Source: Margaritifera margaritifera (taxonomy: Eukaryota > Mollusca > Bivalvia > Unionida > Margaritiferidae). Taken from it: a DNA stretch of 64,000 nucleotides. The notes beneath the pieces were generated by a model, which was not told the origin of the DNA, did not search any database, and saw nothing but the letters and a program-made list of their open reading frames with translations. The stretch is from NCBI GenBank assembly GCA_029931535.1, contig JAQPZY010001692.1:1341001-1405000 (forward strand), written 5' to 3'. A program made the translations under genes and the position numbers. Position 1 is the first letter of the stretch; every line of letters starts with the position of its first letter. Shown here piece after piece: positions 3,795-31,229 of the stretch.

Positions 3795-3810
3795 GGCCCT
3801 TAAAAGGACC
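3795..3810 (-). terminator. Histone-type 3' stem-loop after coiled-coil gene
   Basis: Minus-strand GGTCCT-TTTA-AGGGCC, a 6-bp stem (one G-U) with 4-nt loop, followed by CCCAG and then CTAGAAAAGAAATC as a purine-rich downstream element. It lies 37 nt after the stop codon at 3848. Confidence 0.72.
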
Positions 3811-3847
3811 GTTGGGTTGTTTTGTTTTTGGTTTCAAAACAAAACTT

Positions 3848-4492
3848 TCAAATTAACTTCAAATGCCGTAGTCCTTTACCACGGCCTAATCCATATCCTG
3901 TTAATGCTGCTGCTACTGATGGTGTTTTCATTATGGTGGTAGTCACTGGTGGTGGCGTGGAAGGCTTAGAAGAAGAAGAATGTTGTTTAGCCCTTGATGG
4001 TCTTTTCCGTTTAGGTGGTTGATGAGTTAAAGAATACTTATAGACATTGGTCAACCATTTTAACTCATATAATATCTCTTCCATCAGACTTACAGTTCTT
4101 TCTTGAAAACTGATGCTTTCCTTTCCTGTTTCCTTCTTCTCCTCCTCTTGTAACTGCTGCTGCTGCTGTTGCTGTCTGATTTCTTCTTCTTCACTTTGTT
4201 TTCTTCTCTCTTCTTCTTCTTTCTGTTGTTGTTGAAGAAGAAGAAACATTTCTTCCTCTTCCCGTTGCTTTTTTACAAAATTTTCCATCTCTTCCATTTG
4301 TCTTCTTTTAAAATCATCCACCATTGGTACAGTAGTAGCAGTAGTAGTAGTAGTAGCAGTATTGTCAAACTCTTGATTTAGTAAATCTAAATCAAAGTCT
4401 TCCGACCGGAAGTTCAATAATGCCGCAGCATTCATTATCGTTGCAGGATCACTCCAATACATTGATGTAGTACTTGTCTTTCCAGTCTCCAT
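3848..4492 (-). CDS. Coiled-coil basic-tailed accessory protein (element 1)
   Basis: Intact 214-codon frame with ATG at 4492. The N-terminus has a conserved W(S/G)(D/E)PAT segment and an acidic FDLDLL-type stretch (residues about 10-45). The middle (about 60-120) is a Glu/Gln-rich coiled coil beginning DDFK, followed by a KR-rich, Ser/Thr-rich region. The last residues, GRGKGLRHLKLI, match those encoded in element 2. I do not recognise the family. The homologue in element 2 (14945-15574) is frameshifted, but its conserved ends support this being a real gene. Its promoter carries a TGACGTCA site and TATA box, and its mRNA would end in a histone-type stem-loop. The basic tail may bind nucleic acid, which is inference. 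Confidence 0.72.
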   Translation of the reverse strand: METGKTSTTSMYWSDPATIMNAAALLNFRSEDFDLDLLNQEFDNTATTTTTATTVPMVDDFKRRQMEEMENFVKKQREEEEMFLLLQQQQKEEEERRKQSEEEEIRQQQQQQQLQEEEKKETGKESISFQERTVSLMEEILYELKWLTNVYKYSLTHQPPKRKRPSRAKQHSSSSKPSTPPPVTTTIMKTPSVAAALTGYGLGRGKGLRHLKLI

Positions 4493-4731
4493 GAAGGCTG
4501 TCGAAAAAAGTAATAAACCCCCTACGAACGCTACGATACCTTTATACCCGAGATGACGTCACACCTCCGCTCTCTTGCCATTGGAAGAAAACCGAACCGA
4601 CTTGTAACGCGTGTTTGGATTGGTAGTTGATTTGCATCCATTTCAATCCGATCGTAAGGTATATATACAACCGCTGGTTTCATAAAAGCTTCACCGGTTT
4701 TCTCCAAGACGACCACTCATAAAACATAATC
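4493..4731. promoter_or_regulatory. Bidirectional promoter with CRE site (element 1)
   Basis: Lies between divergent genes. A perfect TGACGTCA palindrome (ATF/CREB-type site) is at 4554-4561, followed on the minus strand by TATAAA at 4541-4546, about 50 bp before ATG 4492. On the plus strand a TATATATA box is at about 4659-4667 before ATG 4732. Also present are CCAAT-type sites and an octamer-like ATTTGCAT. Element 2 keeps the CRE plus TATA in the same relative place (14876-14896). Confidence 0.6.
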
Positions 4732-4968
4732 ATGTGGGTTAGTGTTGAATCCTCCAACATTGTTTCAGGAATGCTGTTTAATCCAGCATTCCTTATGTAT
4801 GTAAAAGCATCATGGGCTAAAACCAAAATTACAGACACAGCTACATGGTATAGACAAACTTATGTGGAGAGACAATGTTGTCTAAAGAGGGTTTTGCTGT
4901 ATCGGCCCGATGTTCGAAGAAGTTTAAAAAGAAAAAGAAAACCCTCTAGGAGATGCTCCTGTTGTTAA
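4732..4968 (+). CDS. Small basic-tailed protein, TIR-associated family (element 1)
   Basis: Intact 78-codon frame starting at ATG 4732 downstream of a TATA box. Residues about 4-30 form a mixed hydrophobic segment containing SGMLFN and MYVKASWA. The C-terminal half is very basic, ending RRSLKRKRKPSRRCSCC. A homologue in element 2 (14482-14715, minus) is frameshifted, and a third copy of just the tail sits in the right TIR of element 2. I do not recognise the family. Short, Arg/Lys-rich, Cys-ended proteins of this kind could be core or DNA-binding proteins, but that is speculation. It is followed after 28 nt by a perfect histone-type stem-loop. Confidence 0.65.
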   Translation: MWVSVESSNIVSGMLFNPAFLMYVKASWAKTKITDTATWYRQTYVERQCCLKRVLLYRPDVRRSLKRKRKPSRRCSCC

Positions 4969-4996
4969 AAACAACAACAATAACAAAAACAAAAAC

Positions 4997-5012
4997 GGTC
5001 CTTTTTAGGACC
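4997..5012 (+). terminator. Histone-type 3' stem-loop after small basic gene
   Basis: GGTCCT-TTTT-AGGACC, a perfect 6-bp stem and 4-nt loop, followed immediately by ACCCA (5013-5017) and CAAGAAAAGA at 5023-5032. Preceded by AAAAAC. It lies 28 nt after the stop codon. This is the layout of replication-dependent histone mRNA 3' ends, with the stem-loop-binding-protein site followed by the U7-pairing element. Confidence 0.85.
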
Positions 5013-5170
5013 ACCCATTTTTCAAGAAAAGATTAATTATTTTTCCAATATTACCTATATAAGTGTGTGTTTTTTATATGTTGTTTGTATATTTGTTTTT
5101 TGTTTTTGTCATAGTCTCCCCATGTATGTTATGTGTGGTGTGTGGATTTTTTTTGGAAAAAAAAAAGGGG

Positions 5171-5209
5171 GGATGTTTTCCATCACGTCCGCGCTTCTCG
5201 CATATAAAG
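5171..5209 (+). promoter_or_regulatory. Conserved promoter module with TATA (copy A)
   Basis: A 38-bp block running from ATGTTTTCCATCACGTCC through a GC-rich centre to GCATATAAAG, about 45 bp before ATG 5254. Near-identical blocks occur in element 2 at 29047-29085 and 29984-30023. Conservation between two diverged elements, always ending in the same TATA box, marks it as a core promoter. Confidence 0.7.
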
Positions 5210-5253
5210 TGGTGCCATCCACAGTAGCGCCATTCACACTTCATTGCTGAAGA

Positions 5254-5778
5254 ATGCTTGACATCATTGAAAATCTACAGGAAGCCTGGGACTGGATGGT
5301 GGAAGTGAAGTATTATAGGGAAAAAATGATGTGGTGGTATCCAGTCAGTTGGAAGTGGGAAATAAATCACTTCACCTACATTAATTTGATTTTGAATTTA
5401 ATTCAAGAAGTGACGAAGGAGGAGGAAGTTAAGAAGAGTAACAACTCCTCTTCACCTTGTCGAGTAGGACTTCTTAAAGAAGTTTTGGATTACATCCATA
5501 AATTGGATGATCATTTAAAATGTATCATCCTCACTCGACAAGAAGCGGCCCTGCTCCGAGTAGAAACCATTATTAAAAAAATTATGGAACAGGAGGTCGC
5601 CAAAATCAAGTTAATGTGGGTGAAGGAGAAAAGAGAAAAACAATTCAATCGTCTGAACTTGAACTGGATGAAAATTCAGAACAAGTTCAGAAAATTGATC
5701 ATCCCGACTGGATACCTGAGAAGAAGGAGGAGGAGAAGAAGAAGAAGAAAAACAAGTTCCACCTCCCAGGCTTCCTAA
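5254..5778 (+). CDS. Helical protein with ten-arginine tail (element 1)
   Basis: Intact 174-codon frame. ATG 5254 sits about 45 bp after the GCATATAAAG box. The N-terminal two thirds is mostly helical and Trp-rich (residues 10-45 contain many W, Y and E). A middle segment (about 80-140) is amphipathic with alternating charges. The C-terminus has an uninterrupted run of ten arginines followed by K and a Ser/Thr tail, suggesting nuclear targeting or nucleic-acid binding. No family recognised. Element 2 has no sequence match here, but its gene at 29137-29520 shares the same promoter module, a basic tail and the same type of 3' end, so the two may be functional counterparts (inference). Confidence 0.65.
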   Translation: MLDIIENLQEAWDWMVEVKYYREKMMWWYPVSWKWEINHFTYINLILNLIQEVTKEEEVKKSNNSSSPCRVGLLKEVLDYIHKLDDHLKCIILTRQEAALLRVETIIKKIMEQEVAKIKLMWVKEKREKQFNRLNLNWMKIQNKFRKLIIPTGYLRRRRRRRRRRKTSSTSQAS

Positions 5779-5813
5779 CTCAATGTTGGGGGAAATAAAA
5801 ATATTCCTCCAAT

Positions 5814-5829
5814 GGTCCTTATCAGGACC
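5814..5829 (+). terminator. Histone-type 3' stem-loop after Arg-tailed gene
   Basis: GGTCCT-TATC-AGGACC, perfect 6-bp stem, followed by ACCCA and then CAAGAAAGA at 5839-5847, nine nucleotides after the stem. CAAGAAAGA is the classic echinoderm-type histone downstream element. It lies 35 nt after the stop codon. Confidence 0.87.
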
Positions 5830-5877
5830 ACCCATTATCAAGAAAGATTAATTCTATTCCCACACCCTCCCCCACCC

Positions 5878-5980: not shown

Positions 5981-5987
5981 GTACCAC

Positions 5988-6199: not shown

Positions 6200-6205
6200 T
6201 GCATC

Positions 6206-11689: not shown

Positions 11690-11862
11690 CCGTGACCATC
11701 ATACCACCTCTGCTTGCAATAAGTGCAATAAATGCATTCAAAAACCTTTTATTTCATCACTGTCGAAATTGTAGTTTGACTCCAGGAGGACGTGAAAAGA
11801 TATTCAGTGGCTCTCGTACTATTTCTGATTTGCCAAGCGGAATGTATGCCCTATCGACGTAG
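11690..11862 (+). pseudogene. PolB fragment of element 3
   Basis: One frame reads HHCRNCS..PGGREKIFSGS, matching the HCPHCSR.PGGREKIF region just after ExoI in the PolB genes of elements 1 and 2. Just upstream another frame gives Cys-rich similarity to the CxxCIQ segment. Frames shift and no full motif set remains. It is a short relic, recognised only by comparison with the other two elements. Confidence 0.72.
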
Positions 11863-14102: not shown

Positions 14103-14555
14103 AGTAGTATATGGGGGGTAAATAGCCCGGTGGGGGCACTACGGCCCGGTCTGGGGTACTATGGTCCGGTATGGGGGCACTATGGTCCGGTATGGGGTCA
14201 CTATGGCCCGGTCTGGGGCACTATGGCCCGGTAGGGGCACTTGGGCTCTGGCCCGATATGGGGTCACTCTGGACCAGTAACGGGAAAGGAACATGGAGTT
14301 AAAAAAGGTTTATAGGGGTCAAAAGGGTTTATGGGACAGAAGTATTTTAGAGGGATAGAATATATACATACACCTAACACACAAACACAAAACATAGAAA
14401 TACTTAGATTGGCAAATGAGATTTCTTTTCGTGGCAATTGGGTGGCCCTGAAAAGGGCGTTGGTTTATTTGGTGAACTAAGTTAACACAGATGGCACCTC
14501 ATGGAGGGTCTTCTTCTTCTTAAGGTTCTACAGACTTCAGGTCCGTAGTGGAAGA
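14103..14555 (+). repeat. Left TIR of element 2
   Basis: Starts AGTAGTATATGGGG and continues with G-run units of about 15-20 bp (CCCGGTNTGGGGNCACTATGG), then a unique part that includes the end of the small basic gene and its stem-loop. Pairs with 30796-31229. Confidence 0.92.
14444..14459 (-). terminator. Histone-type stem-loop in left TIR of element 2
   Basis: Minus-strand CGCCCT-TTTC-AGGGCC. The outer base pair is lost, leaving 5 bp. It is followed by ACCCA and ACGAAAAGAAATC and lies 22 nt after the stop of the small basic gene. Confidence 0.65.
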
Positions 14556-14715
14556 CCCGCTTCAGGCAGCCTTGTCTTTCGATATAAATCCGTCTTTTTC
14601 ACACCTCAGTAGTGGTGATCTTCGTGACTGCCCATGATGCTTTGACATACATCGGGAAGTCTTGGTTAAACAACATCCCCGATACGATGGAGGATGACTC
14701 TACAGAGGTATACAT
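14482..14715 (-). pseudogene. Small basic-tailed protein, frameshifted (element 2)
   Basis: Homologue of the 78-residue protein of element 1 (4732-4968). ATG at 14715 opens a frame that shares the SGMLFN and MYVKASWA segment and stops at about 14600. The basic tail, ending SMRCHLC, continues in a different frame to a stop at 14482-14484. At least one frameshift therefore separates the halves. The 3' part lies within the TIR, and its second copy is at about 30812-30874. Confidence 0.7.
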
Positions 14716-15574: not shown

Positions 15575-15604
15575 GTTTGTTTTTAAAAAAACAAACACCC
15601 CAAC

Positions 15605-15620
15605 GGTCCTTTTCAGGGTC
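15605..15620 (+). terminator. Histone-type stem-loop after coiled-coil gene (element 2)
   Basis: GGTCCT-TTTC-AGGGTC, 6-bp stem with two G-U pairs, preceded by CCAAC, followed by ACCTA and TTAGAAAAGAAATAAT. 30 nt after the stop at 15574. Confidence 0.72.
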
Positions 15621-16349: not shown

Positions 16350-19300
16350 ATGAAAAGATCACGCACTTTCAGTGAGAAAACAGAAGAAGAAACGAAGAAG
16401 CCACGACGGAGACTTTCTGCACCGCCTCAAACGCCGCTAGCTGAAGTGCTAGCTCAAGTCCATGCCAGCGAGTTCGAAGAGGAGATGAGTGAGTCTGAAG
16501 CCACACCTTCCACCAAACCAAGAGAATTCACAACCTCTAACCAAGAAAGTCCTTCCGTGGCTCCCAAAAATTACTATCGCATTCGAGAGACACAAAAAAT
16601 GACATCTAGAAAATTTAGAACCACGGCTTACACTTACACCGTCAACTTTACAAACTTCAAATCTGAAGTGCCTCCCGAGAAAGCCGCAGGGTTTATTACG
16701 GACTTGTGGGATTCCTTGTTACAGACCTTGAAACAACAATGTCTAGCCAAAGAGGACGATAGGTTGAGACTTTCCATCCATCACGACAGTTTGAATTCTC
16801 CTGTCTGGATCGAGTTCAGCACCCCGGCAGAATTAACACCGTCAGGACAAGATGTGCTTGGCCCGTGCCATCGTGGTGGGACGAACGTATGCCGACAAGA
16901 ACGAGACCGCAGAATGGAAAAGAGCATGGAAGAGAATTCGACGATTTTTCAGAGTTCAAAAACGAAAAGAAGCAGAACTCCTGTTACAACAAGCAGGTAT
17001 ACCAAAAAACACCGTGTGTGGCATTGCTGTTTCGAGGACTCGATTTCCCGGAGGGAAAATACATTCACGTGTATTATCATCAAGAACATTTCGATGCCAT
17101 CACCAGTATCACATCATTTCTTGGATACTCTTACTAATGCGAGAAATGCGACCAAGGATTTAACAGTCGGGAGCGACACATTCATTGCGGATAGAGATGT
17201 CGGGGCTGTTTAGCTTCCACGCCATGCCTTCCTGAAAAACACGTGCATTGTTTGACGTGTCGACGAACTTTTGTCAGTCCCTCTTGTTACGAACAACATC
17301 GCAGGTCACAAGCTCACCAGCAGTAAATGGCTTGTGATTTATTGAAATTGTGCTCCAAGTGTGGACACCTGATTCGAACCAACGACCCCAAGTCACACAC
17401 TTGTGCTGGAAAGAAAAGATGCCACATTTGCGACCAAATCGTGGATTATGATCATCAATGTTTCATTCAAAAATATGACAATACACTGGAGAAAGAATTA
17501 AAGGGTGATCACAAGAAGAACAAGACCAAAGTAGATTTCATCTTTTTTTTACTTTAAATGCAAGAGACGAGCATTCACATCCCTAATTTCTGCGTCGCTC
17601 ATCGGGCTTGTGAGAAGTGCATACAAGAACCTATCCATTTTCACTGTCCTCATTGTAGTAGGATTCCAGGAGGACATGAAAAAAAATTTCGTAGCCCCAA
17701 CATTCTAGCAGATTTTGCTCAATGGATTTTAGACCCTACCGACGACACTTGGAGCGAAGAGGACATTCAACGTTACGGAGACTGTCATCGCTATGCTACC
17801 GTCATGGCACACAATTTCTCGGGATACGATGGACAGTTTCTTCTGAAATATTATTCAGAACAATGTACCGAATGCCCCAAAGTCATCATGAACGGAGCCA
17901 AACTTATCTACATGCAAGTAGGACAAGTACAATTCAAAGATTCCATGAGTTATTTGACCATGCCTTTGAGTCGAATGCCTAAAACATTTGGAATGACAGA
18001 AATGGCCAAAGTATATTTTCCCCACTTCTTCAATGCGGAAGCCAATCAACACGTCGTGCTGCCGTATTTGCCTGACGTTCACGATTACGACCCCGACGGA
18101 ATGCACACCGAACACCGAGAAGCCTTTCACGCTTGGTACCAGGCTCACGCTTCAGAACCGTTTGACTTTCAAGAAGAAATGTTAAAGTATTGTCGATTTG
18201 ATGTGGACATTTTGCGCCGTTGCTATGGAAAGTTTAGACAATTATTTCTAGATCACGGAGAAGTCGATCCTTTAAAGGAAGCGTGCACCCTACCCAAAGC
18301 CTGTACCTTAGTGTACACCAAAAAGTTCATGCCCGAGAACGAACTAGCTATCATAGACCCTAACACTTCTCTCTTTGCCATTCGTCAATACTCTGCCAAA
18401 GCATTGCGTTGGTTGCATTACTTGTGCCAAAAAAGAAGACAAATGGATACAACATGCCAGAAACGGAGGGGGAGAAAAGAAAGTGGACAGTCTTTCTGTG
18501 GATGGTTGGGATTTAGAAAACCCTCAGACGGTATACGAATTTCAGAGATGCTTGTTTCACGGATGCCCTACATGTTTTCCTCCACGAGACATGAAAAGTC
18601 CTTTTTCAGACTCCACCATGGAAGAGTTGTAGGAACGCATCTACCAACGCCGCCTGAAGTTAGAAAGTCGAGGATACCATGTAGTAGAAATGTGGGAGCA
18701 GGAGTACGATCGACGTTTCAAAACCAATCCAGAATTTAGACGCATTGCTGAAAGTCACGACGTGGTCGACATCGAACCTTTGGATCCACGCCACAGTTTG
18801 TTTGGAGGACGAACCAATTCCACACGCTTGCTGTACGACGTAGACGAATCTCGAGGAGAAGAAATCAAATACATCGACGTGTGTTCGTTGTATCCTTGGG
18901 TGTGCAAATACAGGAGATTCCCTACCGGACACTCTGAAATCCTGACAGAACACATCGACGTGGAAAACATTCGGCAATACGAAGGATTGATCAAATGCAA
19001 AGTCTTACCCCTGACCCACTTGTACCATACTGTCTTACCCCATCATTGCCATGGAAAACTGATGCAACCAAGATCACGGAGGAAGAACGCGCTTTGACAG
19101 GGACCTGGGTCAGCGCCGAATTGTTTCGCGCTCTGGATCGGGGATACCGCTTGTTGAAAGTGTACGAAATTTGGCACTTTCCTACCACAGCACAATACCA
19201 AAATGACGACGCCTCGAATCCAGGCCTTTTCTCATGCTACGTTAACCAATTTCTCAAACTGAAAAAAGAAGTCAGCGGCTATCCCTGTTGGTGTCGGACG

Positions 19301-20152
19301 CCAGAAGACCAAGTTCAATTCAAAGAACAGTACCGTGCCGTAGAAGGCATCACTTTGAAGAAAAGAACGAAGGAAGGGAGTAGATTGTTTGCCAAAGTAA
19401 TGTTGAATTGCTTGTTGGGAAAAATGGCACAACGCACGATCTTGCCCAAGACGGAATACTTGGCAGATCCCAGTCGCTACTTTCAACTGGTGGACGACAA
19501 AGGAAAACTAGTAAAACACGTAGAAATCATCCGTGAAGGTTTGATCTTGGTCAATTAAGAAGACGAATCCAAGTTTGTACACCCCAACGAGTTTAGCAAT
19601 GTGGTCATTTCAGCCTACGTGACAGCCCATGCTCGCTTGAAATTGTACAATGAGGCTTTAGAAGTGTTGGGAGATCGTGTCCTGTACTTTGACATCGATA
19701 GTTGTATGTACATTCATCGCCCCGGTTGCCCACACCCCACCATCGAAGGAGATCGGTTAGGAGCCTGGACGGACGAGCACCCTCAAGAGACGATCCTCAG
19801 TTTTTCCAACGGTGGCCCTAAAAATTACGGATACCGATACCGAGACAGACAAGGCCAACTTCACACCAAATGCAAAGTCAAAGGATTAACCCTGAACTAT
19901 CGAACCAGCCAAGTGGTGAACTTTGATGTTTTGAAAAATGCTTTGCACTCTGGACAAGCCCAAGACTTTCGAGTGAAAACTTTAGAACCCCACCAAATCG
20001 TCAGTCTCCTTTTAAAAAAAGTTTACCAAATTGTGTACCATAAACGAGTGAGACTTCCAGACTGCACCACTTTGCCTTATGGACATGTCGCTCTTCAGTA
20101 TAAAAAGGGACAACTTCCAGGCCCAACCATTCATTGTGACTCCAAACGTTGA
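16350..20152 (+). pseudogene. Protein-primed DNA polymerase B of element 2 (many breaks)
   Basis: Nearly full-length family B polymerase in several frames. ATG 16350 has the same start context as element 1. The N-terminal frame runs to about 16840, where roughly 170 bp present in element 1 is missing. Further in-frame stops occur near 17135, 17191, 17325 and 17555. The ExoI DxE motif is destroyed at the last of these. ExoII (NFSGYDGQF, about 17812) and ExoIII (YCRFDVDIL, about 18190) remain. Polymerase motif A (DVCSLYP, about 18880), motif B-like KVMLNCLLGKM (about 19400) and motif C (YFDIDS, about 19686) are visible, with frameshifts near 18450 and 19060 and a stop at 19556-19558. The coding region ends at 20150-20152. 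Clearly non-functional. Compared with element 1 it keeps a segment near 18510-18680 that element 1 lacks. Confidence 0.95.
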
Positions 20153-20170
20153 CCGAGTAAGAAGAAGAAG

Positions 20171-20719: not shown

Positions 20720-20720
20720 C

Positions 20721-21853: not shown

Positions 21854-21896
21854 TTTTCCAAGACAAAAAGAAGTGAACTTGGAACCAAAGTTAACC

Positions 21897-22085
21897 ATGA
21901 CACTCGAACCTCAAGAAGAAGACCACAAGGTCGTACCCATAGAAACACCTGAGGAACAAAAAACCTTTCCGTCAGAGACATTTCGTTCTTCCACCACAGA
22001 GACAAGAATACCAGTGCGTGTGCACCCAATTCGTAGGACACCTATTCATCAAGTGTGTTCTTGTTGTACATTGACTTGTTTATAA
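21897..22085 (+). CDS. Small Glu/Pro/Thr-rich ORF with Cys-rich end
   Basis: ATG 21897 gives a 62-codon frame, acidic and Pro/Thr-rich, with a short Cys-containing end (VCSCCTLTCL). The frame extends further upstream without another good start. No family recognised. It is followed by about 180 bp of AT-rich spacer before the ATPase gene. Confidence 0.35.
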   Translation: MTLEPQEEDHKVVPIETPEEQKTFPSETFRSSTTETRIPVRVHPIRRTPIHQVCSCCTLTCL

Positions 22086-22271
22086 AGAACTTTTATTCAT
22101 TTAGTGGTGGCCTTATTGTTGTACCTCACCATTTTTGGTGTATGCGTTTTCGTACTTCATGACCTGTAAATATGTTTTTTGTTGTTTTTGAAAAAAACAT
22201 TAAACGTGTATGAAACGTATAATACGTCTTGTGTCTTTCGTGTTCTTCTCAAAATTCTTCCTACCTCAGTC

Positions 22272-23014
22272 ATGGCTGCATCTTCCTCTGCCTCCTCTGC
22301 CTCTTCTTCTTCTGTGGTCAAAGTGATTGACGAAAAGTTAGATCGTCCAAGTTGGGAAGCTTTGTATCTGCGCCATCCATTTAACATGTTGATTGCTGGA
22401 CCTAGTGGTTCAGGCAAAACCGAGTTTGTCAAACTTTTGATCGAACACAAATCTCATTTGTTTGATCGTTCTCCTCAACGTATCGTGTGGTGTTACAAAG
22501 AGTGGCAATCGTCTTGCACGTTACTTCATGAAAGTCAAGGAGAAGCCATTTCGTTTGTCGAAGGCATTCCTCATTGATCGTGTCTGACCTGAGTCAAACA
22601 CATCTGGTCATCTTCGACGATATGTTAGGAGAAGACGAAGAAGACATTTTAAACTTTGGTTTACACGAAAAGGACATCATCGGAATGCCAGCATCATTTA
22701 CATTACTCAAAATTTATTTTATACAAAGTAAAGCCCATCGTACCATCAGTCTCAACGCTCATTACGTGGTGTTGTTTAAAAGCCCCAGAGACAAATCTCA
22801 AGTGCAAGTTTTAGCCAAACAGTTAGGTACTCCTAGGCTGAATTATGCGTACGACGATGCCACTCAAACACCTCATGCGTATTTACTCATCGATTTAAAA
22901 CCCACCACTCCCGAGTATTTGAGATTTCGTACCAGTTTGTTTCACCATTGGTGTCAAGAAGGAGGTCCCATCATTTTACACGTCCCCTTCAGTCACTCTC
23001 TGAAAGAAAAAAAA
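22272..23014 (+). pseudogene. FtsK/HerA-type DNA-packaging ATPase, frameshifted
   Basis: P-loop ATPase of the adenovirus IVa2/poxvirus A32-like type that loads DNA into capsids. ATG 22272 follows an AT-rich promoter region. After a Ser/Ala-rich start, Walker A GPSGSGKTEF is at residues about 43-52. The frame meets TGA at 22575-22577, and the protein continues one base over with Walker B LVIFDDML (about 22604) and the ISLNAHYVVLFKSPRDKSQ sensor region (about 22750-22800) typical of Polinton ATPases. A natural end is not obvious. Similarity fades after about 23,010. A single frameshift lies between Walker A and B, so the copy is non-functional unless the sequence has an error there. Confidence 0.9.
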
Positions 23015-23062
23015 ACTATAAAAACATCCACCACGTCATTTCTTTCTCACAGTCTTCGAGAT

Positions 23063-23433
23063 GACTTTCTTTCAATTTCATCTTCCTGCCAAATTGATTC
23101 GCGCCCTGTATGGCATCGATCGCGAAAAAAATGCACAAGTCCGTGCCCATTTGTTTACTTTCACGGCACGTCAATTACTTCAAGGCATCATTCACATCCC
23201 TCATCAACCCAAAACGTTTTTTTGAAAAACATAAAGTGGCGTTGTCACAACTGGCAGATCCTAGAATTGATCCACGCACTAAAAAACAAATCATTTTGAC
23301 CCCTGGTGGTAGTTGTTCTTGAGGAGGTGTCATGATTCGTTCTCTTTTGAAATGGGATCCTAATGCCCAAGCCAAAACCAAAACCAAAAATAAAACCACC
23401 AAGAAGAAGAGCCCTAAGAAAAAAAAAACCTAA
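23063..23433 (+). pseudogene. Small virion/core-like protein with Lys/Pro-rich end, broken
   Basis: ATG 23063 opens a 54-codon frame (MTFFQFHLPAKLIRALYG...), which frameshifts near 23220 into DPRIDPRTKKQIILTPGGS, has a TGA at 23320-23322 and ends with a Lys-rich tail at 23431-23433. An overlapping frame (23363-23545) is even more Lys/Pro/Arg-rich. The I-x-P-x-T-KKQIL-x-GG pattern with a basic tail resembles small Polinton core/membrane-active proteins placed between ATPase and integrase, but I cannot name the family with certainty. Confidence 0.5.
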
Positions 23434-23605
23434 GAAGATGAAGAAGAAAAACCCTTCCAATAAAAAACCACCAACTACTACCAGAAAGAGAGATACTACT
23501 GCTATAGGACGCGCACGTACTCCCGAAAGCCACGAGAGGCAGTGACGGTGTCTCCTTCTCCTCCGTCCACTTCTTCGTCTCCTTCTTCTTCCTCGCCCCT
23601 TTGTC

Positions 23606-23914
23606 ATGATGCCTGCCAAACCGAATTTAAGACAAGTGTTTCCTAATTTGATGCAAAAATGGAAACCCATTTCGAAAGTCACCACTCCTCAGGCATCGAC
23701 TTCGGCTGCTCTGGCAACTGCGGCTGCCACTAAAAAAGTACCCTCACCTAAAACCAAAGTCCAAGAGAGGACCGGCGTGTTACAAAGCTTACTGGATTTA
23801 TCCAAACAAGAACTGACACGATTTAGTCCGTTGAAAACACCTCAACGTCGAGTGATGCCTGTCGTGAAGATGGTACGCCGTGCGGAAAATCAGTGGAGAC
23901 GTGTTCCAGTATAA
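23606..23914 (+). CDS. Basic small protein of unknown family
   Basis: 102-codon open frame starting ATGATGCCTGCC. Ala/Thr/Lys-rich middle, Arg-rich end (RRAENQWRRV). Isoelectric point clearly basic. Lies in the virion gene block between ATPase and integrase and overlaps the next ORF start by 22 bp. Possibly a core protein. Confidence 0.4.
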   Translation: MMPAKPNLRQVFPNLMQKWKPISKVTTPQASTSAALATAAATKKVPSPKTKVQERTGVLQSLLDLSKQELTRFSPLKTPQRRVMPVVKMVRRAENQWRRVPV

Positions 23915-24393
23915 AAAAGAAGTGTGACCTCCGAGAAACCTCAGTTCTATTGTTTGTTCCCGACATCCAAGATGACCCCAAAAGTGGACACCATTCTACT
24001 CGTCCCAAGAAAGGCAAAACCAAAAAAGAACTTCCACCTCGTCTAGTTAAACATTGGGACGTGTTGTCCGACCTGACTAAATCCAATCCGCATATGCGAA
24101 AACAACTCATTCAGACAGCTCCCAAAGAAATCATCGATACCGTGAGCGAATGTTGTTTGAATGTGTTGAAAGGAACGGTACCTTTTGTCCAAGATGCAGA
24201 GAAAAAAAAATTAGGCAAACATCGGAACGTTCTTCGCCAAATGGTCAAAAAGAAAATACCTCTCAGTCAAAATAAAAAAATGTTGGTGCAACGAGGAGGA
24301 TTTCTACCCATACTGATACGACCGTTGTTAAAAATAGCGGCTTCTTTGTTAGGTACGATTGCTGGACCCATTTTAGGAGGAGTCATGCTATAA
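23893..24393 (+). CDS. Polinton core/PX-like protein with QRGGF motif
   Basis: Open frame of 166 codons, start uncertain because the first 40 residues do not look conserved and an alternative ATG at 23971 is in another frame. From residue about 50 it matches a very widespread Polinton protein: a helical LSDLTKSNPHMRKQLI repeat-like part, a CCLNVLKGTVP segment, many lysines, then KKMLVQRGGFLPILIRP, and a hydrophobic Gly-rich end (SLLGTIAGPILGGVML). In the family this basic plus hydrophobic layout suggests a DNA-core or membrane-active virion protein. The body is unbroken here. Confidence 0.65.
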   Translation: METCSSIKKKCDLRETSVLLFVPDIQDDPKSGHHSTRPKKGKTKKELPPRLVKHWDVLSDLTKSNPHMRKQLIQTAPKEIIDTVSECCLNVLKGTVPFVQDAEKKKLGKHRNVLRQMVKKKIPLSQNKKMLVQRGGFLPILIRPLLKIAASLLGTIAGPILGGVML

Positions 24394-24417
24394 AGACGGG
24401 AAGAAAAAGAAGATAAA

Positions 24418-24984
24418 ATGGACACCCTTCTATGGAAAGACAACACACTTATACCGTTGGATATTATGGAAGGACGAAAACTGACTTTAGTTCCTTACAA
24501 ACGATGGATGGAATTCCATAGTTGGAACGAACAACGGATACCTCATTTACTTCCCAATCCGAATCTCAACGAGATGTCACAGTTACAACAAGAATTACAA
24601 TCGCTCATGGATCGAAGTGATTTGTCAGAAGCAGAAAAATCGCAACGGTAAGGTCAACTCTTGCAACGTCTTCAACTCTTTCACCAGAAAGCTTTAGACG
24701 AAACAGCTAAACCCACTCTGAAAGATTTCAAGGCGATGATGAAAAGCGAACCTAAAGTCACCACCATCACTAAAACAGACACCGCCACGGGGACGACAGA
24801 AGAAGACGAGCCCCGAGAAGTGTTTCAAACTCCGTCTGCTCCCATCTCTAGTAAGATTTCAGCTGCCTTGTTGACACCCTCTCCTACACCTTTTAGAGAA
24901 GAAATGAAAGCTTGGGTTAAAAAGATGATGTCCACTCCCTCTTCAGCAGAAGAAAAAAAAATAAAGAAAGCAAGACTGAAGTGA
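24418..24984 (+). pseudogene. Integrase-adjacent Polinton virion protein, one internal stop
   Basis: ATG 24418. N-terminal KLTLVPYKRW segment and a helical LQQELQSLMDRSDLSEAEKS region are features of the protein that commonly precedes integrase in Polintons. A TAA at 24649-24651 interrupts the frame where the family continues (LLQRLQLFHQK). The remainder, 24652-24984, is Thr/Ser/Pro-rich and ends in a basic KKARLK tail. The stop sits where family members usually carry a polar residue and is most simply a point mutation. Function in the virion is not established. Confidence 0.6.
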
Positions 24985-25091
24985 AAAAAGACACCAAGAA
25001 GAAACCTACCATCACCCCTTCACAACCGACTCCTGTGGCTCGTTGAACGCGTCAAGCCGCTTCGTCCAAACCTCACGACACCAAAAGTAGT

Positions 25092-26221
25092 ATGGAACAG
25101 TGGGTGACTTATTGAGGAACAACAAAAAATCATATAGAAACTTTTAGCTAGCATTTACTACATCCTGCCCATGCTGCTGGTTACGGAGGAGTTCAAAAAT
25201 TGTATCGGGCTGCTAAAAGCCAATTGAAAAGTGTACGTTTGCCAGAAGTACGACGATGGTTACAAGAACAATCGACGTACACGTTACACAAACCCATTCG
25301 ACGAAATTTGTCTAGAAGTCAAACCAAAGTGGAAGGGATCGATCATCAATGGCAAGCAGATTTAGCGGATGTCTCTCATTTGGCAGCGTACAATCGTGGT
25401 TACAAATATTTGTTTTGTGTCATCGACGTGTTTTCCAAATTTGCTTGGGTCGTGCCTTTGACTTCTAAAAGCAGTACCCAGTTGGTACGCCCCTTAAAAC
25501 TGGTGTTGAAACAAAGTGGTCGTCACACTTTACGATGGCAAACCGACAAAGGCTCCGAATTTCTAAACCAAGCTTTTCAAAAAGAGTTGAAACAACGCCA
25601 CATTCATTTTTTTACCACCGAAAATCCTGAAACCAAAGCCAGTGTCGTGGAACGTTTTCAAAGAACTTTGAAAGAGCGCATGTGGAAATATTTTACATAT
25701 CAACACACTCTCAAGCACATCGACGTGTTACCACGTTTGGTCAAAGCGTACAATCAATCGTACCATCGTAGCATCGGATGAGCACCACTGAAAACGAAGT
25801 GACGGTGTTTGATAAATTGTTTGGTACACCAAAATTGAGACACCAGAAAATCGTGGTGCTCAAGACGGGAGATTGGGTTCGCATCGGAAAAACCAAACGC
25901 ACTTTTGACAAAGGTTATTTACCCAACTGGACGACCGAATTGTTTCGTGTCACTGGACCAATGCGTTGACGTGATCCTCCCGTCTATAAATTGGAAGACA
26001 TGCACGGAGAAGTGTTAAAAGGAACTTTTTACTTGCCTGAGTTACAACGATTGACCAAAAAAGAAGACGACTTGTACGACATCGAAAGCATTCTCGAACG
26101 AAGAACACGCAAAGTGGGCAAACGTCGAGTAGAAGAAGTCAAAGTGCGTTGGAAAGGATATCCACCTGGTTTTGATTCTTGAATTGCCGCTTCCCAAGTC
26201 GTCGACTATAAAAAGAAGTAA
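25092..26221 (+). pseudogene. Retroviral-type integrase with C-terminal chromodomain, broken
   Basis: Inserts the element and makes 6-bp duplications. The N-terminal part (25092-25199) has stops and a frameshift, followed by an AAGYGGVQKLYRAAK motif. The catalytic core is an open stretch at 25200-25778. The D,D-35-E residues are visible: D in WQADLADV (about 25355), D in WQTDKGSEF (about 25545) and E in VVERFQRTL (about 25650). After a stop at 25779-25781 the frame shifts. The SH3-like part has a TGA at 25967-25969, and a chromodomain (YDIESILERRTRK..VRWKGYPPGF, about 26077-26175) is cut by a TGA at 26180-26182 where a Trp codon is expected. End at 26219-26221. The perfect TGCGAT duplication shows that an active integrase acted when this copy arrived. 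Confidence 0.95.
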
Positions 26222-26226
26222 CCAAC

Positions 26227-26602
26227 ATGCCGTTCAACACAGCAACTACCTCTTCTCCTTCGCAGAGTTCCTCTCTTCACGAATTAGAAAAACAACCTTT
26301 GCGGGTGTGGTGCGGAGAACGTGTGCCTAAAAATCAAATCGTCTTTTTCTGCCAAATCTTTTTGGTATATTGTGTCATCGGAGCAGCCATTGCCAATTTG
26401 AGTTTGCAACAAGGGAAGAAAAAATTTGTGGACCATTTTACTCAGTAGTTGCATCGGTTATCTTTTACCCAGTCCTTCCTTGAAATTTACGACGGACAGT
26501 CACAACAGCAGCCAGCACAACGGTAAACGGTACGGCCAACGCCAGTCATCCTTCTTCCAGTCACCACAATACCAGCCCTCTTTTGGAACAGTTTGAACAT
26601 CA
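26227..26602 (+). pseudogene. Small Polinton membrane protein, frameshifted
   Basis: ATG 26227, six bases after the integrase end. An RVWCGERVPKNQIVFFCQIF segment leads into a hydrophobic helix (FLVYCVIGAAIANLSL, about residues 38-53). The frame meets TAG near 26446, and the usual continuation (SSCIGYLLPSP) follows in another frame before a polar tail ending near 26602. This hydrophobic protein regularly lies between integrase and capsid genes in Polintons. Function unknown. Confidence 0.6.
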
Positions 26603-26655
26603 TTCTCCTTTGGCCGCAAGTGACTCCTCGGACACCAGAACCCTCGAACTACTAT

Positions 26656-27576
26656 GAATAACCAATTTTATTGAACTTTACCCAGTGACGTGTGTTTCTC
26701 AACAACAAATGATGTTGTTTCCCGGCTAAATTACCTCCATCAATACAATTGAATCACGAAGCTCATTGGGAAGTGGCTTTGGTAGAAATCATTCATCCTA
26801 CGCAAGCCCTCAACATCAACGAAGGCCAAAGCACTTTCATCGTGGATATCATAAACGAGCAAGTGCAACAACACTTGGACACCAATGATCCTATAAAAAA
26901 AACAACACCAATCCTCCTTCTTTGACTAGCTGTAGCATGAGTATTCCTGTGGGGTATTATTTTAATGCTCAGCATTTGGTTGAGACGATTGCAGCTATCT
27001 TTCAGGACCAATTTGGCAAAGCCGTGGACAAAACCAAGAAAATTGTCCATATCGAGTACCATAAAGTGTCACATCGTCTTAGAATGCATTTTTCGGACCT
27101 CCATCACTTTTTGTCCTGAGTTGTTTGATATTTTGGGCGCATACACAAAACTGGTTCCCATGAAAGACATCCACAGCAACGATCGATTTTACAAGTTTTT
27201 TCGCTACCCTGTCGAATTAAACGATGGACTGAATGTATTGTTTGTGTCCTCCGATGTAGTGGAGTACAACGTGGTGGGAAACACAGCCGCTCCGTTACTG
27301 AGAGTCATTCCTTTCAAAGCGGATTCTGCTGTCACCGCGTACGAGGAAGTTGGAAACACGTATCACGTTCACCGTGAATTTGTACATCCTCATTATATTC
27401 CAGTCAGTAACTCGTATTTTGACAGTGTCAACATTAGTATAAAAGGAGATTTGGGACAAAGTGTTATATTCAGTAAAGGAAAAGTCACGGTGAAACTACA
27501 TTTTCGAAAAAGGTTTGTAACACCAAAATGTATCCTGTGTACCAATGAGTGGCTCGACAACGAGGACACGGTTTAG
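26656..27576 (+). pseudogene. Penton-like minor capsid protein (single jelly roll), broken
   Basis: Starts at ATG 26656 (NNQFY start typical of the family) with an immediate TGA. The characteristic HWEVALVEIIHP segment is in another frame near 26766-26802, a SIPVGYYFNAQHLV segment at about 26940, and a long open stretch at 27111-27576 carries the C-terminal half, ending in the family pattern FDSVNISIKGDLGQSVIF..GKVTVKLHFRK. The true end is probably near 27520. Forms capsid vertices in related viruses. At least two frameshifts and several stops make it inactive. Confidence 0.85.
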
Positions 27577-27944
27577 GAGATATGTTAAAATCTGCTTTTC
27601 GGACGGTAGCCCCCATCTTGAAACCCATGGTGACTCGAGGATTGCATGCCTTAAAAGATGCCGCTTTGACGCAAGGAAAATAATTTCTTCCTAAACGTCC
27701 TCATCGACAAACAAAATCCGAAAGAAGCCTTTATGAGAGCAGGAAAAATGTGTTGCTGCAAACTGGAAAAGAACTTTTGGGTCGACGAGAGACCCCAATA
27801 AATTTGCTTCACGCCTCTGGCCCTGGCATTACTTCTTCCTTCACTCCACAGCAAGGACAAGGCAGAAAGAGGCGTCGACACCCCTTGGGATTCTTGCATC
27901 GTCATCATGGTCGGGGCATGGCAAACAGATCCAGTTCTGACTAG
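27528..27944 (+). pseudogene. pVI-like virion protein, broken
   Basis: ATG 27528 overlaps the penton gene end. The seventh codon is TGA (27546-27548). Then comes the typical GHGLGDMLKSAFRTVAPILK amphipathic helix, a second helix (HALKDAALTQGK), a TAA near 27681, further similarity in other frames, and a GQGRKRRRH basic end near 27880. In adintovirus-type Polintons this position holds a membrane-lytic internal virion protein comparable to adenovirus pVI. Assignment rests on the Gly-rich amphipathic helix, gene position and basic C-terminus. Confidence 0.65.
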
Positions 27945-28056
27945 GTACATTCGCAAGAATCTCGGTGCATCATTTTTTCAACAGTTAGTAATCAAACACG
28001 TCTTATTCTCTGACCGTTCTTCTTTTCTTATTCTTTTTCTGAACACCGTGTGATTT

Positions 28057-28212
28057 ATGAGTTCTGAGATCTCGGAAGAAAAGGTGTTGAGAAAGTGGTA
28101 TAAAGACTTGCAGGATCGTTCTTCACCTCCACTCACTTCTCTGGAGACCAAACGCATCGAAGCTCTCTTGCAACAGAGTACAGAGACTTCCGTGATTCAT
28201 CGACTTACTTGA
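28057..28212 (+). pseudogene. Remnant of the capsid-adjacent CxxC gene (element 2)
   Basis: 51-codon frame from ATG 28057. Its TKRIEALLQQSTETS segment matches TKYVEALLYQSTDALL in the element 4 gene at 31,890-31,925, which normally follows the major capsid gene. The Cys/His-rich front half is absent here. The region 27,945-28,056 contains nothing resembling a capsid gene, so a deletion removed the major capsid gene and the start of this one. Confidence 0.5.
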
Positions 28213-28285
28213 GAGACCAATTCAAGCATAAAGTCAAGTGTGAATTGAGGACTTATCGTTACCTGTGAACCAAGAAAAAAAAGAA

Positions 28286-28852
28286 ATGGATACCTGGGAA
28301 CTCCATAACATGTTGACTCGCTGTTCGTACACTTCTTCTTGGAATCCTGTGGTGTGTGCTAAAGATGAACTTATCCATCGCAAACCTACAGACGTTCATG
28401 CCTATGTCATCAATACCGACGTCAGTGATCGACCAGGAACCCATTGGGTGGCCGTGTACTTTCCCAACGATCACAGTGTGGAATATTTTGATTCTTATGG
28501 ATTACCTCCTTTGGAAGACGACATCATTGACTTTATGAGAAGAAATGCGGTCTCTACTCGACTCAATAATGCCAGATTACAAGGATCAGATTATATGGTG
28601 TGTGGACAATATTGTGTGCATTTTCTTCATCAACGCAGTCTCAGATATTCCTTAGAACATTTAGCGACTTGTTTTGATAGAGAGTATGCTCGAAACGATG
28701 CTAAAGTAGAAAGATGGTTTTGTGAACATTATGGTTATCTCTTGTCTTTAGCTCAGAAACGTAGTGTGCATCGAGGACAGAATGATTTAGAACAGTGGAA
28801 GTCGAGTTTGACTTCCCAACGTTGTCAACCCTGTAAATACGTTCATGTTTAA
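28286..28852 (+). CDS. Adenain-type cysteine protease (maturation protease)
   Basis: Intact 188-codon frame. ATG 28286 is the first ATG in a frame open from 28265. Cleaves virion proteins during assembly in adenoviruses and relatives. The catalytic triad is readable in adenain order: His in GTHWVAVYF (residue about 51), Asp in EYFDSYG (about 67), and Cys in the CGQYCVHFL block (about 113, after the Gln of the oxyanion hole). Length suits Polinton proteases (about 180-200). It follows the capsid-adjacent gene, as usual. One of only a few unbroken genes in this element, which is notable among so many pseudogenes. No histone-type stem-loop follows; AT-rich tail only. Confidence 0.95.
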   Translation: MDTWELHNMLTRCSYTSSWNPVVCAKDELIHRKPTDVHAYVINTDVSDRPGTHWVAVYFPNDHSVEYFDSYGLPPLEDDIIDFMRRNAVSTRLNNARLQGSDYMVCGQYCVHFLHQRSLRYSLEHLATCFDREYARNDAKVERWFCEHYGYLLSLAQKRSVHRGQNDLEQWKSSLTSQRCQPCKYVHV

Positions 28853-29045
28853 AAAATGTTTGTTTGTATTTGCATTTTGTGTTAGAGAAGCTTCTTGTTG
28901 TTCATTAAAAAATGTTGATTTTTGAAAGAAAATGGTGTAGTGTTGTTTATTTTATTTTGATAAAAATGAAATGGTTATGCTCTTTCACTCTTTCTATCCC
29001 TCTGAGGTAACCTACTCTTTCACATTTCTCACTATTAATCTGAGT

Positions 29046-29085
29046 CATGTTTTCCATCGCGTCCGCGCTTCCAGCATATAAAGCG
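29046..29085 (+). promoter_or_regulatory. Conserved promoter module with TATA (copy B)
   Basis: ATGTTTTCCATCGCGTCC...GCATATAAAG, about 52 bp before ATG 29137. Near-identical to 5171-5209. The leading ATG of this block is in frame with the gene but is part of the promoter, so I do not take it as the start. Confidence 0.72.
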
Positions 29086-29136
29086 GTGTGTTGGTCAGTC
29101 CAGTCACTCTCGTTGACTCGCCAATACTTCAAGAAG

Positions 29137-29520
29137 ATGGCAGCCAAAATTAGCACGTTGAATGAAGCAATGGCGAATATGCAGCGAGTGAGGCATGTTT
29201 TGCTTGAGAAGAACCCAGAGAAGAAGACTGATCTTTTTGCAAATGGCTCAAGATCTGGTGGAAGAAGTCCTGAGAGAAGAAATCGTCAGGGACAGAGCGG
29301 AATGGAGGAGAGACAAAGAGTTCAGCAGCAGCAAAGACAACAACAACAGCAGCAGCTACAGCAACAACAACAACTCTTACAGCAGCTGAAACAACCAAAC
29401 GGAGAAGTCAGCTGCAGAATGGATTGTGATCAGTTTGCCTTCTCTTTCGCCAGAAAGCGCCCTTGTCCTGCAGCAGTGAGACCTGTGGCGAAACGTGGAC
29501 GTCCTGCTGCTAGAAGTTAA
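29137..29520 (+). CDS. Gln-rich basic small protein with promoter module and histone-type end
   Basis: Intact 127-codon frame. ATG 29137 is chosen because it lies downstream of the TATA box. An N-terminal helix (about 1-30) is followed by a charged region, a Gln-rich coiled stretch with runs of up to seven Gln (about residues 58-85), and an Arg/Pro/Ala-rich tail with KRPCPAAVRPVAKRGRPAARS, which looks like an NLS or AT-hook-like basic motif. No family recognised. It shares its promoter block and 3'-end type with the Arg-tailed gene of element 1 (5254-5778), and both sit near an element end. Unbroken, unlike most of element 2. Confidence 0.62.
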   Translation: MAAKISTLNEAMANMQRVRHVLLEKNPEKKTDLFANGSRSGGRSPERRNRQGQSGMEERQRVQQQQRQQQQQQLQQQQQLLQQLKQPNGEVSCRMDCDQFAFSFARKRPCPAAVRPVAKRGRPAARS

Positions 29521-29551
29521 AAAAAACTTCTCACCAAAACAAAAACCCAAC

Positions 29552-29567
29552 GGCCCTTTTTAGGGCC
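29552..29567 (+). terminator. Histone-type 3' stem-loop after Gln-rich gene
   Basis: GGCCCT-TTTT-AGGGCC, perfect 6-bp stem, preceded by CCCAAC, followed by ACCCA and CTAGAAAAAGATTAC. 31 nt after the stop at 29520. Closest of all copies to the animal histone consensus. Confidence 0.87.
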
Positions 29568-29983
29568 ACCCAGATCTCTAGAAAAAGATTACTGTAGGAT
29601 TGCCTACCAAAACAAATTTAGTGTCTTTGTATGTGAAGTGTTTGTTTGTTGTGTTTTGTCTTTGTCTTCCCACTCCAAAAAAAATCCCTTTCCCTTCAAA
29701 AAAAAATGTATGTGTGATGTGTGTTTGCATAGAATGTTTGTTTTTTTTTTTTTTTTAAATAAAAAAATTCTAAAAATGTATGTGTGGTGTGTGTTTGTAT
29801 AGAGTGTGTTGTGTTTTATCAAAAAAATAAAAATTTAAAAGTGTTTCATTTTAGGTCCGCGTACTGAGTGTGGTTTTTTTTGTAGGGGTGGTGGAGTGCA
29901 GAATCGGCGAAGCAAAGAATGACCTCATAAGGATGACGTCAGACGCGGTCGTGTGGGTGATGTTTTTTTATGTATGTGTGAGG
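29568..29983. other. AT-rich spacer without gene (element 2)
   Basis: A roughly 40-bp stretch with ATGTATGTGTG(A/G)TGTGTGTTTG is repeated at 29,706 and 29,775. Poly-T/A runs. No coding frame I can support. Confidence 0.5.
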
Positions 29984-30023
29984 GATGTTTTCCTTCACGT
30001 CCATGTTTTAAGCATATAAAGCG
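29984..30023 (+). promoter_or_regulatory. Conserved promoter module with TATA (copy C, no gene downstream)
   Basis: ATGTTTTCCTTCACGTCC...GCATATAAAG, third copy of the module. The following sequence runs into a minisatellite within about 45 bp, so the gene it once served is gone or replaced. A transcript could still start here. Confidence 0.62.
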
Positions 30024-30064
30024 ACGCATTCCCCAGTCGAGCTACCACCGACTGATAACTCACA

Positions 30065-30765
30065 CCGCGTGTTGGATACCGGTAGTAATCAAAAAGTGGG
30101 TGTTGGATAGTAATCAAAAAGTGGATTTTGGATAGTAATAAAAAAGTGGGTGTTGGATAGTAATCAAAAAGTTGGTGTTGGATAGTATGTTTGTGTGATT
30201 TCATCCCTTCGTCATACCCTTTTCGTCTGATAGTAGGTTTGGATTTTTTAGACAGCACGCAAGGCGTTTGGAATTAGTGTATATGGGGTATTGGATAGTA
30301 ACCAAAAAGTGGGTATTGGATAGTAATCAGAAAGTGGGTGTTGGATAGTAATCAAAAAGTGGGTGTTGGATAGTAATCAAAAAATGGGTGTTGGATAGTA
30401 ATAAAAAATGGGTGTTAGATAGTAATCAAAAAGTGGGTGTTGGATAGTAACCAAAAAAGTGGGTATTGGATAGTAATCAAAAAGTGGGTGTTGGATAGTA
30501 ATCAAAAAGTGGGTGTTGGATAGTAATCAAAAAAATGGGTGTTGGATAGTGTGTTGGTGTGATTTCATCCCTTCGTCATACTCTCTTCGTCTGATAGTAG
30601 GTTAGGGGTTTTTAGACAGCACGCAAGGCGTTTGGGATAGTGTGTGCATGGGGTATTGGATAGTAGATAACTAAGTATTGGATAGAAGATAACTAAGTAA
30701 TTGGATAGTAGATAACTAAGTATTGGATAGTAGATAACAAAGTAATTGGATAGTAGATAACTATT
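30065..30765 (+). repeat. 25-bp minisatellite with embedded 80-bp duplicated block
   Basis: Many units of GTGGGTGTTGGATAGTAATC plus A-run, then units built on TTGGATAGTAGATAACTAAG. An unrelated block of about 80 bp (GATTTCATCCCTTCGTCATA ... GACAGCACGCAAGGCGTTTG) occurs twice, at 30,199-30,271 and 30,561-30,632, so the array expanded by segmental duplication. Confidence 0.85.
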
Positions 30766-30795
30766 CCCATGTTAAATTCTTTTAGACCCCCATCT

Positions 30796-31229
30796 GCGGG
30801 TTCTCATCTATGGACCTGAAGTAAGTCGAAGCTTAAGGAGAAGAAGACCCTCCATGAGATGCCATCTGTGTTAACTTGGTTGACACCACTCCAACGGCCC
30901 TTTTCAGGGCCACGCACCTCTCTCGAAAAGATTATTCTAAGATTGCCAATCCTAGTGTTTCTATGTTTTGTTTGTTTGTGTGTTAGGTGTATGTATATAT
31001 TCTATCCCTCTAAAATATTTATGTCCCATAAACCCTTTTGACCCCTATAAACCTTTTTTAACTCCATGTTCCTTTCCCGTTACTGGTCCAGAGTGACCCC
31101 ATACCGGGCCAGAGTGACCCATACCGGGCCCAAGTGCCCCCACCTGGCTATAGTGCCCCATACCGGACCATAGTACCCCAGACCGGGCCGTAGATCCCCC
31201 ACCGGGCTATTTACCCCCCATATACTACT
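30796..31229 (-). repeat. Right TIR of element 2
   Basis: Reverse complement of 14103-14555, with small differences. Includes a second copy of the tail of the small basic gene (about 30812-30874, read on the plus strand, ending SMRCHLC) and of the stem-loop. The upstream part of that gene is not present on this side. Confidence 0.92.
30896..30911 (+). terminator. Histone-type stem-loop in right TIR of element 2
   Basis: GGCCCT-TTTC-AGGGCC, perfect stem, preceded by CCAAC, followed by ACGCA and CTCGAAAAGATTATT. 21 nt after the TAA at 30872-30874. Here the stem is intact while the left TIR copy has lost one pair. Confidence 0.83.

Follow-up and report, generated by a model that had tools for sequence, protein, structure and literature searches.

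Among metazoan mRNAs, those of the replication-dependent histones have been called the only known ones to be terminated by a stem-loop in place of poly(A) (PMC10388802, PMC6303110). We analyzed a 64-kb stretch of the genome of the bivalve Margaritifera margaritifera (contig JAQPZY010001692.1, positions 1,341,001 to 1,405,000; hereafter the window), in which two elements, A and B, look like Polintons, and found stem-loops of this kind behind accessory genes of both. Like the histone mRNA ends, which Rfam describes as family Histone3 (RF00032), the sites have the stem, the loop, AA on the 5’ side, an ACCCA-like flank, a purine-rich histone downstream element (HDE) and a short distance to the stop codon; unlike them, they follow Polinton accessory genes and not histone genes. 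Histone-type ends on Polinton genes are a strong and surprising finding, and they suggest that the elements borrow the histone machinery of their host. Judging from the sequence, it is very probable that a class of Polinton accessory genes ends in the host’s histone pre-mRNA 3’-processing signal, and that host stem-loop-binding protein (SLBP) and U7 small nuclear ribonucleoprotein (U7 snRNP) would give their mRNAs ends free of poly(A).

According to the cited portions of the histone literature, SLBP reads G7 and contacts A3-A5 of its site (PMC12775136), the minimal RNA for full SLBP affinity includes a pair of adenines on the 5’ side and a single one on the 3’ side (PMC10388802), cleavage falls about 5 nt past the stem (PMC6303110) and U7 pairs with the HDE (PMC7026596). 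The histone genes of C. elegans resemble our sites in having a hairpin and an HDE-like element, with ends 3-6 nt past the hairpin, but there the signal belongs to histones and a conserved AATAAA comes after the hairpin (PMC1924863). The SARS-CoV-2 frameshift RNA is a viral RNA that interacts with SLBP (PMC12166091), but it is no 3’-end processing signal. Polintons (Mavericks) and the Adintoviridae have PolB, an rve integrase and terminal inverted repeats in common with the elements studied here. Zinc-finger genes named “Ziftr” are known from some adintoviruses, and the stem-loop gene of L002, a distant relative introduced below, likewise encodes a C2H2 protein; the main text of that adintovirus account, in the portion available, contains neither “stem-loop” nor “polyadenyl” (PMC11071296). 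Among the open-access matches listed, with subscription journals outside the scope, none described histone-type ends for genes of Polintons, adintoviruses or transposons, and “stem-loop binding protein” and “Polinton” were not mentioned together in the open-access literature searched.

An earlier note on this DNA had proposed seven stem-loops in the window. A cmscan run with 4,227 Rfam families matched Histone3 at every one of them (E-values 1.3e-8 to 0.038) and gave no further Histone3 match in the 64 kb up to E = 5; the sites do not score as background under the covariance model, the outcome that had been named beforehand as speaking against the proposal. Three of the seven reach the curated cut-off of 34 bits and the other four lie below it, with E-values of 5.8e-5 to 0.038 (Table 1). 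The stem pattern GGYYCTTYTYAGRRCC, with up to two mismatches, occurs 10 times in the window against 0.71 expected, three of the occurrences being outside the seven sites, and a strict scripted stem count gave 6 in the window against 0-4 across 20 shuffles. One stem-like stretch at 20883-20898 was rejected: it has no ACCCA and no Histone3 match up to E = 5. Recounting the distances placed all sites on the coding strand, 21-37 nt past a stop codon, as had been proposed; the genes at 14444, 15605 and 30896 are decayed, and for these sites the distance is counted from the stop of the homologous frame.

Other details of the proposal needed amendment. A stem of 6 bp is present at most sites, but at 14444 the first pair is broken (C opposite C). 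ACCCA or a one-base variant mostly follows the stem, but site 3795 lacks the first A. The one exact purine element, CAAGAAAGA, does stand downstream of the stem-loop at 5814. All seven sites are present, but six at most are independent, because 14444 and 30896 represent one site, duplicated in the terminal inverted repeats of element B; since 15605 in element B is in addition the homologue of 3795 in element A, the seven sites are not seven independent events. Their 5’ flank is mostly CCAAC. When the site of L002 is added, G7, U12 and U14 are present in 8 of 8 sequences, A3 and A4 in 7 and 8 of 8, respectively, and all six stem pairs in 7 of 8. A covariance model built from these eight sequences scores its own sites at 50.4-60.5 bits, a circular result as the model was built from those sites, whereas no other stretch of the 81,351 bases exceeds 17.0 bits; the Rfam scores are not circular.

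We then considered how far the signal is spread in the host genome (2.45-Gb assembly, 1,696 contigs). RF00032 scored 75 out of 508,685 first-look candidates, and every one of the 75 exceeds the cut-off. Scanning both strands of the 75 loci yielded 130 sites, 126 of them distinct as two locus pairs overlap. A tblastn comparison of the DNA upstream placed 124 of these 126 behind five accessory gene families (gene3A 45, small 42, crak 18, KRKR 15, gene3B 4) and left two unplaced. The matches by which the loci had been selected lie behind Polinton accessory genes in 74 of 75 cases (gene3A 38, small 29, crak 7), the remaining one (L092) being unplaced. In related elements of the same genome the sites thus again follow the stop codons of these gene families, which had been one of the checks suggested. 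For the accessory genes, 53 distinct open frames are listed in this genome, and with so many copies with open frames the signal is directly testable.

The 130 sites comprise 69 distinct 46-mers. G7, U12 and U14 were search criteria, as were a C in the 3’ flank and some stem bases, and the constancy of these positions carries no information. No such condition was set on A3 and A4 of the 5’ flank, which are present in 130/130 sites, including 55/55 outside the selecting ones; A5 is mostly C, as it is in host histone ends. ACCCA follows the stem at 120/130 sites, a frequency raised by selection on the Rfam score (74/75 selecting sites, 46/55 others). Stem pair 3 varies between CG (98), TG (27) and TA (5) and is a standard pair in all 130 sites; pair 4 is CG in 80, TA in 27, TG in 11, CA in 11 and TT in 1, a standard pair in 118/130.

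The association with particular genes was also approached from the genes. By the script rule, 55 of 60 accessory gene ends away from the selecting site carry a stem-loop in the fetched loci, although as many as four of these ends may have served for selection in an overlapping locus; four of the five misses are one base off the rule and one is two bases off. Zinc-knuckle ends (0/3) and a protease end (0/1) in the fetched loci have none. For a control starting from PolB we took the first 20 of 37 listed PolB matches and examined 800 nt upstream of PolB and 350 nt past its end. Upstream, where the KRKR gene ends, the covariance model matched in 19/20 copies (one partially, 29.3 bits) and the strict script in 17/20; past the end of PolB both gave 0/20. 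The proposal that PolB, zinc-knuckle and virion genes lack the signal therefore holds for PolB, the zinc-knuckle gene and the protease, whereas capsid gene ends were compared in the window, L001 (a second distant contig) and L002 only. The 17 KRKR matches found by the script keep an HDE-like block, A3 and A4. CCCAG in place of ACCCA, an inherited variant, is seen upstream of PolB at L117, L119, L121, L124-L128 and L132 and at 3795 in the window. In the window, L001 and L002, the gene classes could not be told apart by the poly(A) signals after 24 gene ends.

The host’s own histone genes provide the closest comparison. A PF00125 search of the genome gave 150 scored matches, including tandem arrays with a period near 8 kb, and about 350 nt past 15 of these matches were examined. 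All 15 ends have the stem-loop, in 8 distinct sequences; 14 are over the Rfam cut-off (34.2-40.6 bits) and one (L111) scores 20.9 bits. The covariance model built from Polinton sites recovers all 15 at 42.8-52.1 bits. GGCCCTTTTCAGGGCC is the most frequent stem both in Polinton sites and in the host (9/15 host ends), and at 47 of the 130 Polinton sites the stem-loop is identical to a host one. The purine core, with HDE cores such as CAAGAAAAGA and CTAGAAAAGA, starts 12 nt after the stem in 119/130 Polinton sites and 12-13 nt after it in 13/15 host ends; in two host ends and one Polinton site it was missed by the script. Compared with the best host segment, the 25 nt after Polinton stems agree at a mean of 17.6 positions (lowest 11), random stretches of the same loci at a mean of 8.5 (highest 16), and the window sites at 9 to 18. 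That the layout is the one of a replication-dependent histone mRNA end, as the earlier note had it, is borne out by this shared stem-loop, the same purine core and the nearly equal spacing. The two groups differ in score, 49 of the 75 listed Polinton-locus matches having at least 44.9 bits, and in the 3’ flank, which is ACCCA in Polinton sites versus ACACA, ATACA, ATGCA or ATCCA in the host; the flank may be the cause of the score gap. Contigs C668, C1281, C751, C349 and C318 carry arrays of histone-like frames interrupted by in-frame stops; the period of some of these arrays is near 1.74 kb.

The identical stem-loops would also be expected if the signals had once been taken from a histone gene of the host, had been carried along passively as the elements spread, and had no function now. 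We regard such an origin without present function as barely conceivable: the signal stands behind five gene families, the 46-nt signal block is 72-76% identical between elements A and B whereas its flanks are 49-57% identical, pairs 3 and 4 stay paired as counted above though both vary, and the distant element L002 has the signal too. Hairpins are used for termination in large DNA viruses, and two of the window sites lie in a terminal repeat. Both points could be taken to mean that the hairpins act at the level of DNA or transcription, as terminators of the giant-virus type or palindromes of terminal repeats, and are histone-like by convergence. The other five window sites, however, are outside the terminal repeats found, the AA flank is kept here, as is the HDE with its fixed spacing, neither of which a plain hairpin needs, and the same set of features occurs on host histone genes, so that we hold this convergence to be highly improbable.

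Relatives outside this host were sought with PolB in public prokaryote genomes, and the scan led to two contaminant contigs, L001 and L002. L002 has a PolB 32% identical in the best segment, an rve integrase with a weak chromodomain match and, adjoining the integrase, a TATA-binding-protein domain gene (L002:7189-7695, minus strand; PF00352, E 1.2e-27). Its Histone3 match (35.8 bits, E = 2.8e-7) lies 28 nt past the stop of a C2H2 zinc-finger open reading frame (ORF). This ORF is near the contig end and minisatellites follow; it probably belongs to the Polinton element. In IMG/VR the strict stem-loop pattern had 0 matches. A looser pattern had 20, of which 4 have six standard pairs; 11 of the 20 were run through Rfam and none was Histone3 at gathering score. 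PolB queries of IMG/VR, by sequence or alignment, gave 0 confirmed relatives.

Support for a histone-type processing signal on the accessory genes thus consists of the signal itself, its place behind specific genes, its spread over copies, its likeness to host histone ends and its absence behind PolB; from these we infer SLBP binding, cutting, lack of poly(A) and S-phase control. The signal would be made up of a stem of six pairs with a U-rich loop of four bases, preceded by a 5’ flank with AA and followed by a short ACCCA-like flank and a purine HDE. Host SLBP would bind the stem-loop and host U7 snRNP would pair with the HDE, CPSF73 would cut between the two, and the mature mRNA would end a few bases past the stem without poly(A). 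The likely gain for the element would be expression tied to DNA-replicating cells. The sites behind gene3A, small and crak genes appear in the main to have the features of such an SLBP/U7 signal.

A related but different explanation is that SLBP binds the stem-loops for translation or stability while the mRNAs stay polyadenylated, with dual ends as are possible in C. elegans histone genes. At gene3A polyadenylation is possible because 23/46 sites have A[AT]TAAA within 60 nt upstream of the stem. Within 150 nt past the expected cut, on the other hand, this motif occurs at 7/129 sites versus 27/129 after one letter permutation, and the HDE core, conserved at host spacing, would have no evident use in pure SLBP binding. 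Retained polyadenylation is therefore unlikely in our view, and we keep to poly(A)-free ends made by SLBP and U7 as the preferred interpretation.

The gene3A motif is nevertheless one of several observations that weigh against this interpretation. The main blemish is the CCCAG variant at KRKR ends: the first A of ACCCA is lost in 11/17 of them (CCCAG 9, CCCCA 2), the base after the stem being A in the other 6 (ACCCA 4, AGCCA 1, ACCAG 1), and this counts because one 3’ adenine belongs to the minimal SLBP site (PMC10388802, in part). KRKR sites without that adenine may bind SLBP less well. Site 3795 agrees with host downstream segments at only 9/25 positions, the lowest value because of its missing base, and one of the 20 PolB copies (L114) has no upstream signal. 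Pair 4 holds the C-A mismatch in the 11 sites counted above. In the 8-site alignment the compensatory change amounts to one pair, and 123/500 shuffles reach the covariation score, i.e. there is no excess. A search of the host for U7 snRNA gave nothing, its control queries being equally silent. L001 has no Histone3 match, although the contig may not hold the whole element, and outside this host the signal is thus present in one of two distant contigs. The genome copies are related, so the site counts are not independent events, and the 75 scored matches are neither complete nor the genome’s best, since they do not include host histone ends that score as high as 40.6 bits.

SLBP is an S-phase protein. 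Since the signal ties mRNA supply to SLBP, the class of genes that carries it would serve the replication phase of the element. We give about even chances to the wider proposal that animal Polintons carry an ancient histone-mRNA-like regulon, in which small accessory genes have poly(A)-free mRNAs whose production, translation and destruction go through the host’s histone mRNA cycle, the element thereby sensing and exploiting S phase; if this is true, no natural set of protein-coding genes other than histones would have been placed in the histone mRNA pathway before. Histone-type ends on these genes, if made as proposed, would break the rule that only histone mRNAs in animals end in a stem-loop without poly(A) and would reveal a novel means by which a DNA element couples its genes to replication of the host’s DNA. 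The accessory genes would escape poly(A)-based control, and their transcripts would be missed by poly(A)-selected RNA sequencing.

None of the stem-loop genes examined encodes a histone (crak being outside the Pfam scan): Pfam gave no histone match for three stem-loop genes of element A and gene3B (E <= 0.1) or for the L002 gene (E <= 0.01). For the gene3A protein of the window the protein search gave no homologue at E <= 0.1. A relative of gene3A (L068) is predicted to form a four-helix bundle (predicted local distance difference test, pLDDT, 82.7), a fold without a match in PDB or BFVD at E <= 0.001. The predicted structure of one small-family protein is poor (pLDDT 57.6); the basic end of the small protein is conserved in the family alignment. 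A definition of the class simply as basic proteins was rejected, as net charge ranges from -3 to +16 in five stem-loop genes and several other genes are basic too.

The features of both elements are listed in Table 1. Element A reaches from the left window edge, past which it extends, to about 5,860 and is inverted; element B covers 14,103-31,229, with terminal inverted repeats 83% alike. The two are 68-82% identical in aligned parts, B being decayed. Their resemblance to Polintons is in gene content, PolB and a zinc-knuckle gene in A and PolB, an integrase and a protease-like gene in B; of the Polinton features, PolB, rve integrase and terminal inverted repeats are present, the repeats being shown for element B only. 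An ATPase fragment of element B has weak FtsK/A32 matches below cut-off. The names of the capsid genes in these elements are our presumption, as is the name protease for the gene at 28286..28852, which has no Pfam match.

Table 1. Genes, repeats and stem-loops of elements A and B, with the Histone3 (RF00032) matches from cmscan.
Feature	Position	Strand	Histone3 match start; bits	Basis
PolB open frame, element A	375..2903	-		PF03175 5.5e-15; more PolB similarity at 4-396
Zinc-knuckle gene, element A	3034..3555	+	no match, i.e. without stem-loop	PF00098
Stem-loop behind KRKR gene, element A	3795..3810	-	3770; 23.5	37 nt past stop 3848
KRKR accessory gene, 214 aa, ends GLGRGKGLRHLKLI	3848..4492	-		ORF; homologues in element B and other copies
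“Small” accessory gene, 78 aa, basic C-terminus	4732..4968	+		64% identical stretch at 14715-14485; family alignment
Stem-loop behind small gene	4997..5012	+	4992; 40.8 (above cut-off)	28 nt past stop
gene3A, 174 aa, arginine-rich end	5254..5778	+		ORF; family alignment
Stem-loop behind gene3A, then CAAGAAAGA	5814..5829	+	5809; 31.1	35 nt past stop
Left terminal inverted repeat, element B, with minisatellite	14103..14560	.		83% to 31229-30796; tandem repeats
Stem-loop in left terminal repeat, behind small-gene copy, first pair broken	14444..14459	-	14419; 24.4	22 nt past stop 14482
Small-gene copy, element B	14485..14715	-		tblastn 64% over 78 aa
Stem-loop behind KRKR homologue, element B	15605..15620	+	15600; 24.2	30 nt past stop 15572
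Decayed PolB in pieces, element B	16350..20089	+		tblastn
Integrase, element B	25164..26200	+		35-39% to L002 integrase, which has rve
Protease-like gene, element B, without stem-loop	28286..28852	+		29% to an L002 ORF
gene3B, ends KRGRPAARS	29138..29520 (start set after TATA-like box; frame 29047-29520)	+		relatives in own genome
Stem-loop behind gene3B	29552..29567	+	29547; 37.9	31 nt past stop
Right terminal inverted repeat, element B	30796..31229	.		83% to left repeat
Stem-loop in right terminal repeat	30896..30911	+	30891; 34.3	21 nt past stop 30872

Upstream of several stem-loop genes we noticed by eye a promoter-like block, TGTTTTCC..CACGTCC..GCATATAAAG, with variants, at 5173-5225, 29044-29080 and 29985-30023. 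With such a common block the stem-loop gene class may share 5’ control too. Also by eye, TGACGTCA, which is like a cAMP-response element (CRE-like), and CCAAT-type boxes were seen upstream of stem-loop genes at 4550-4680, 14760-14890 and L002:7870-7960; histone promoters often have boxes of these types. The closest named match of the PolB is from the clam Mercenaria (45%). A small PolB fragment at 11758-11859 of the window (47% over 34 aa) is perhaps the trace of a third element.

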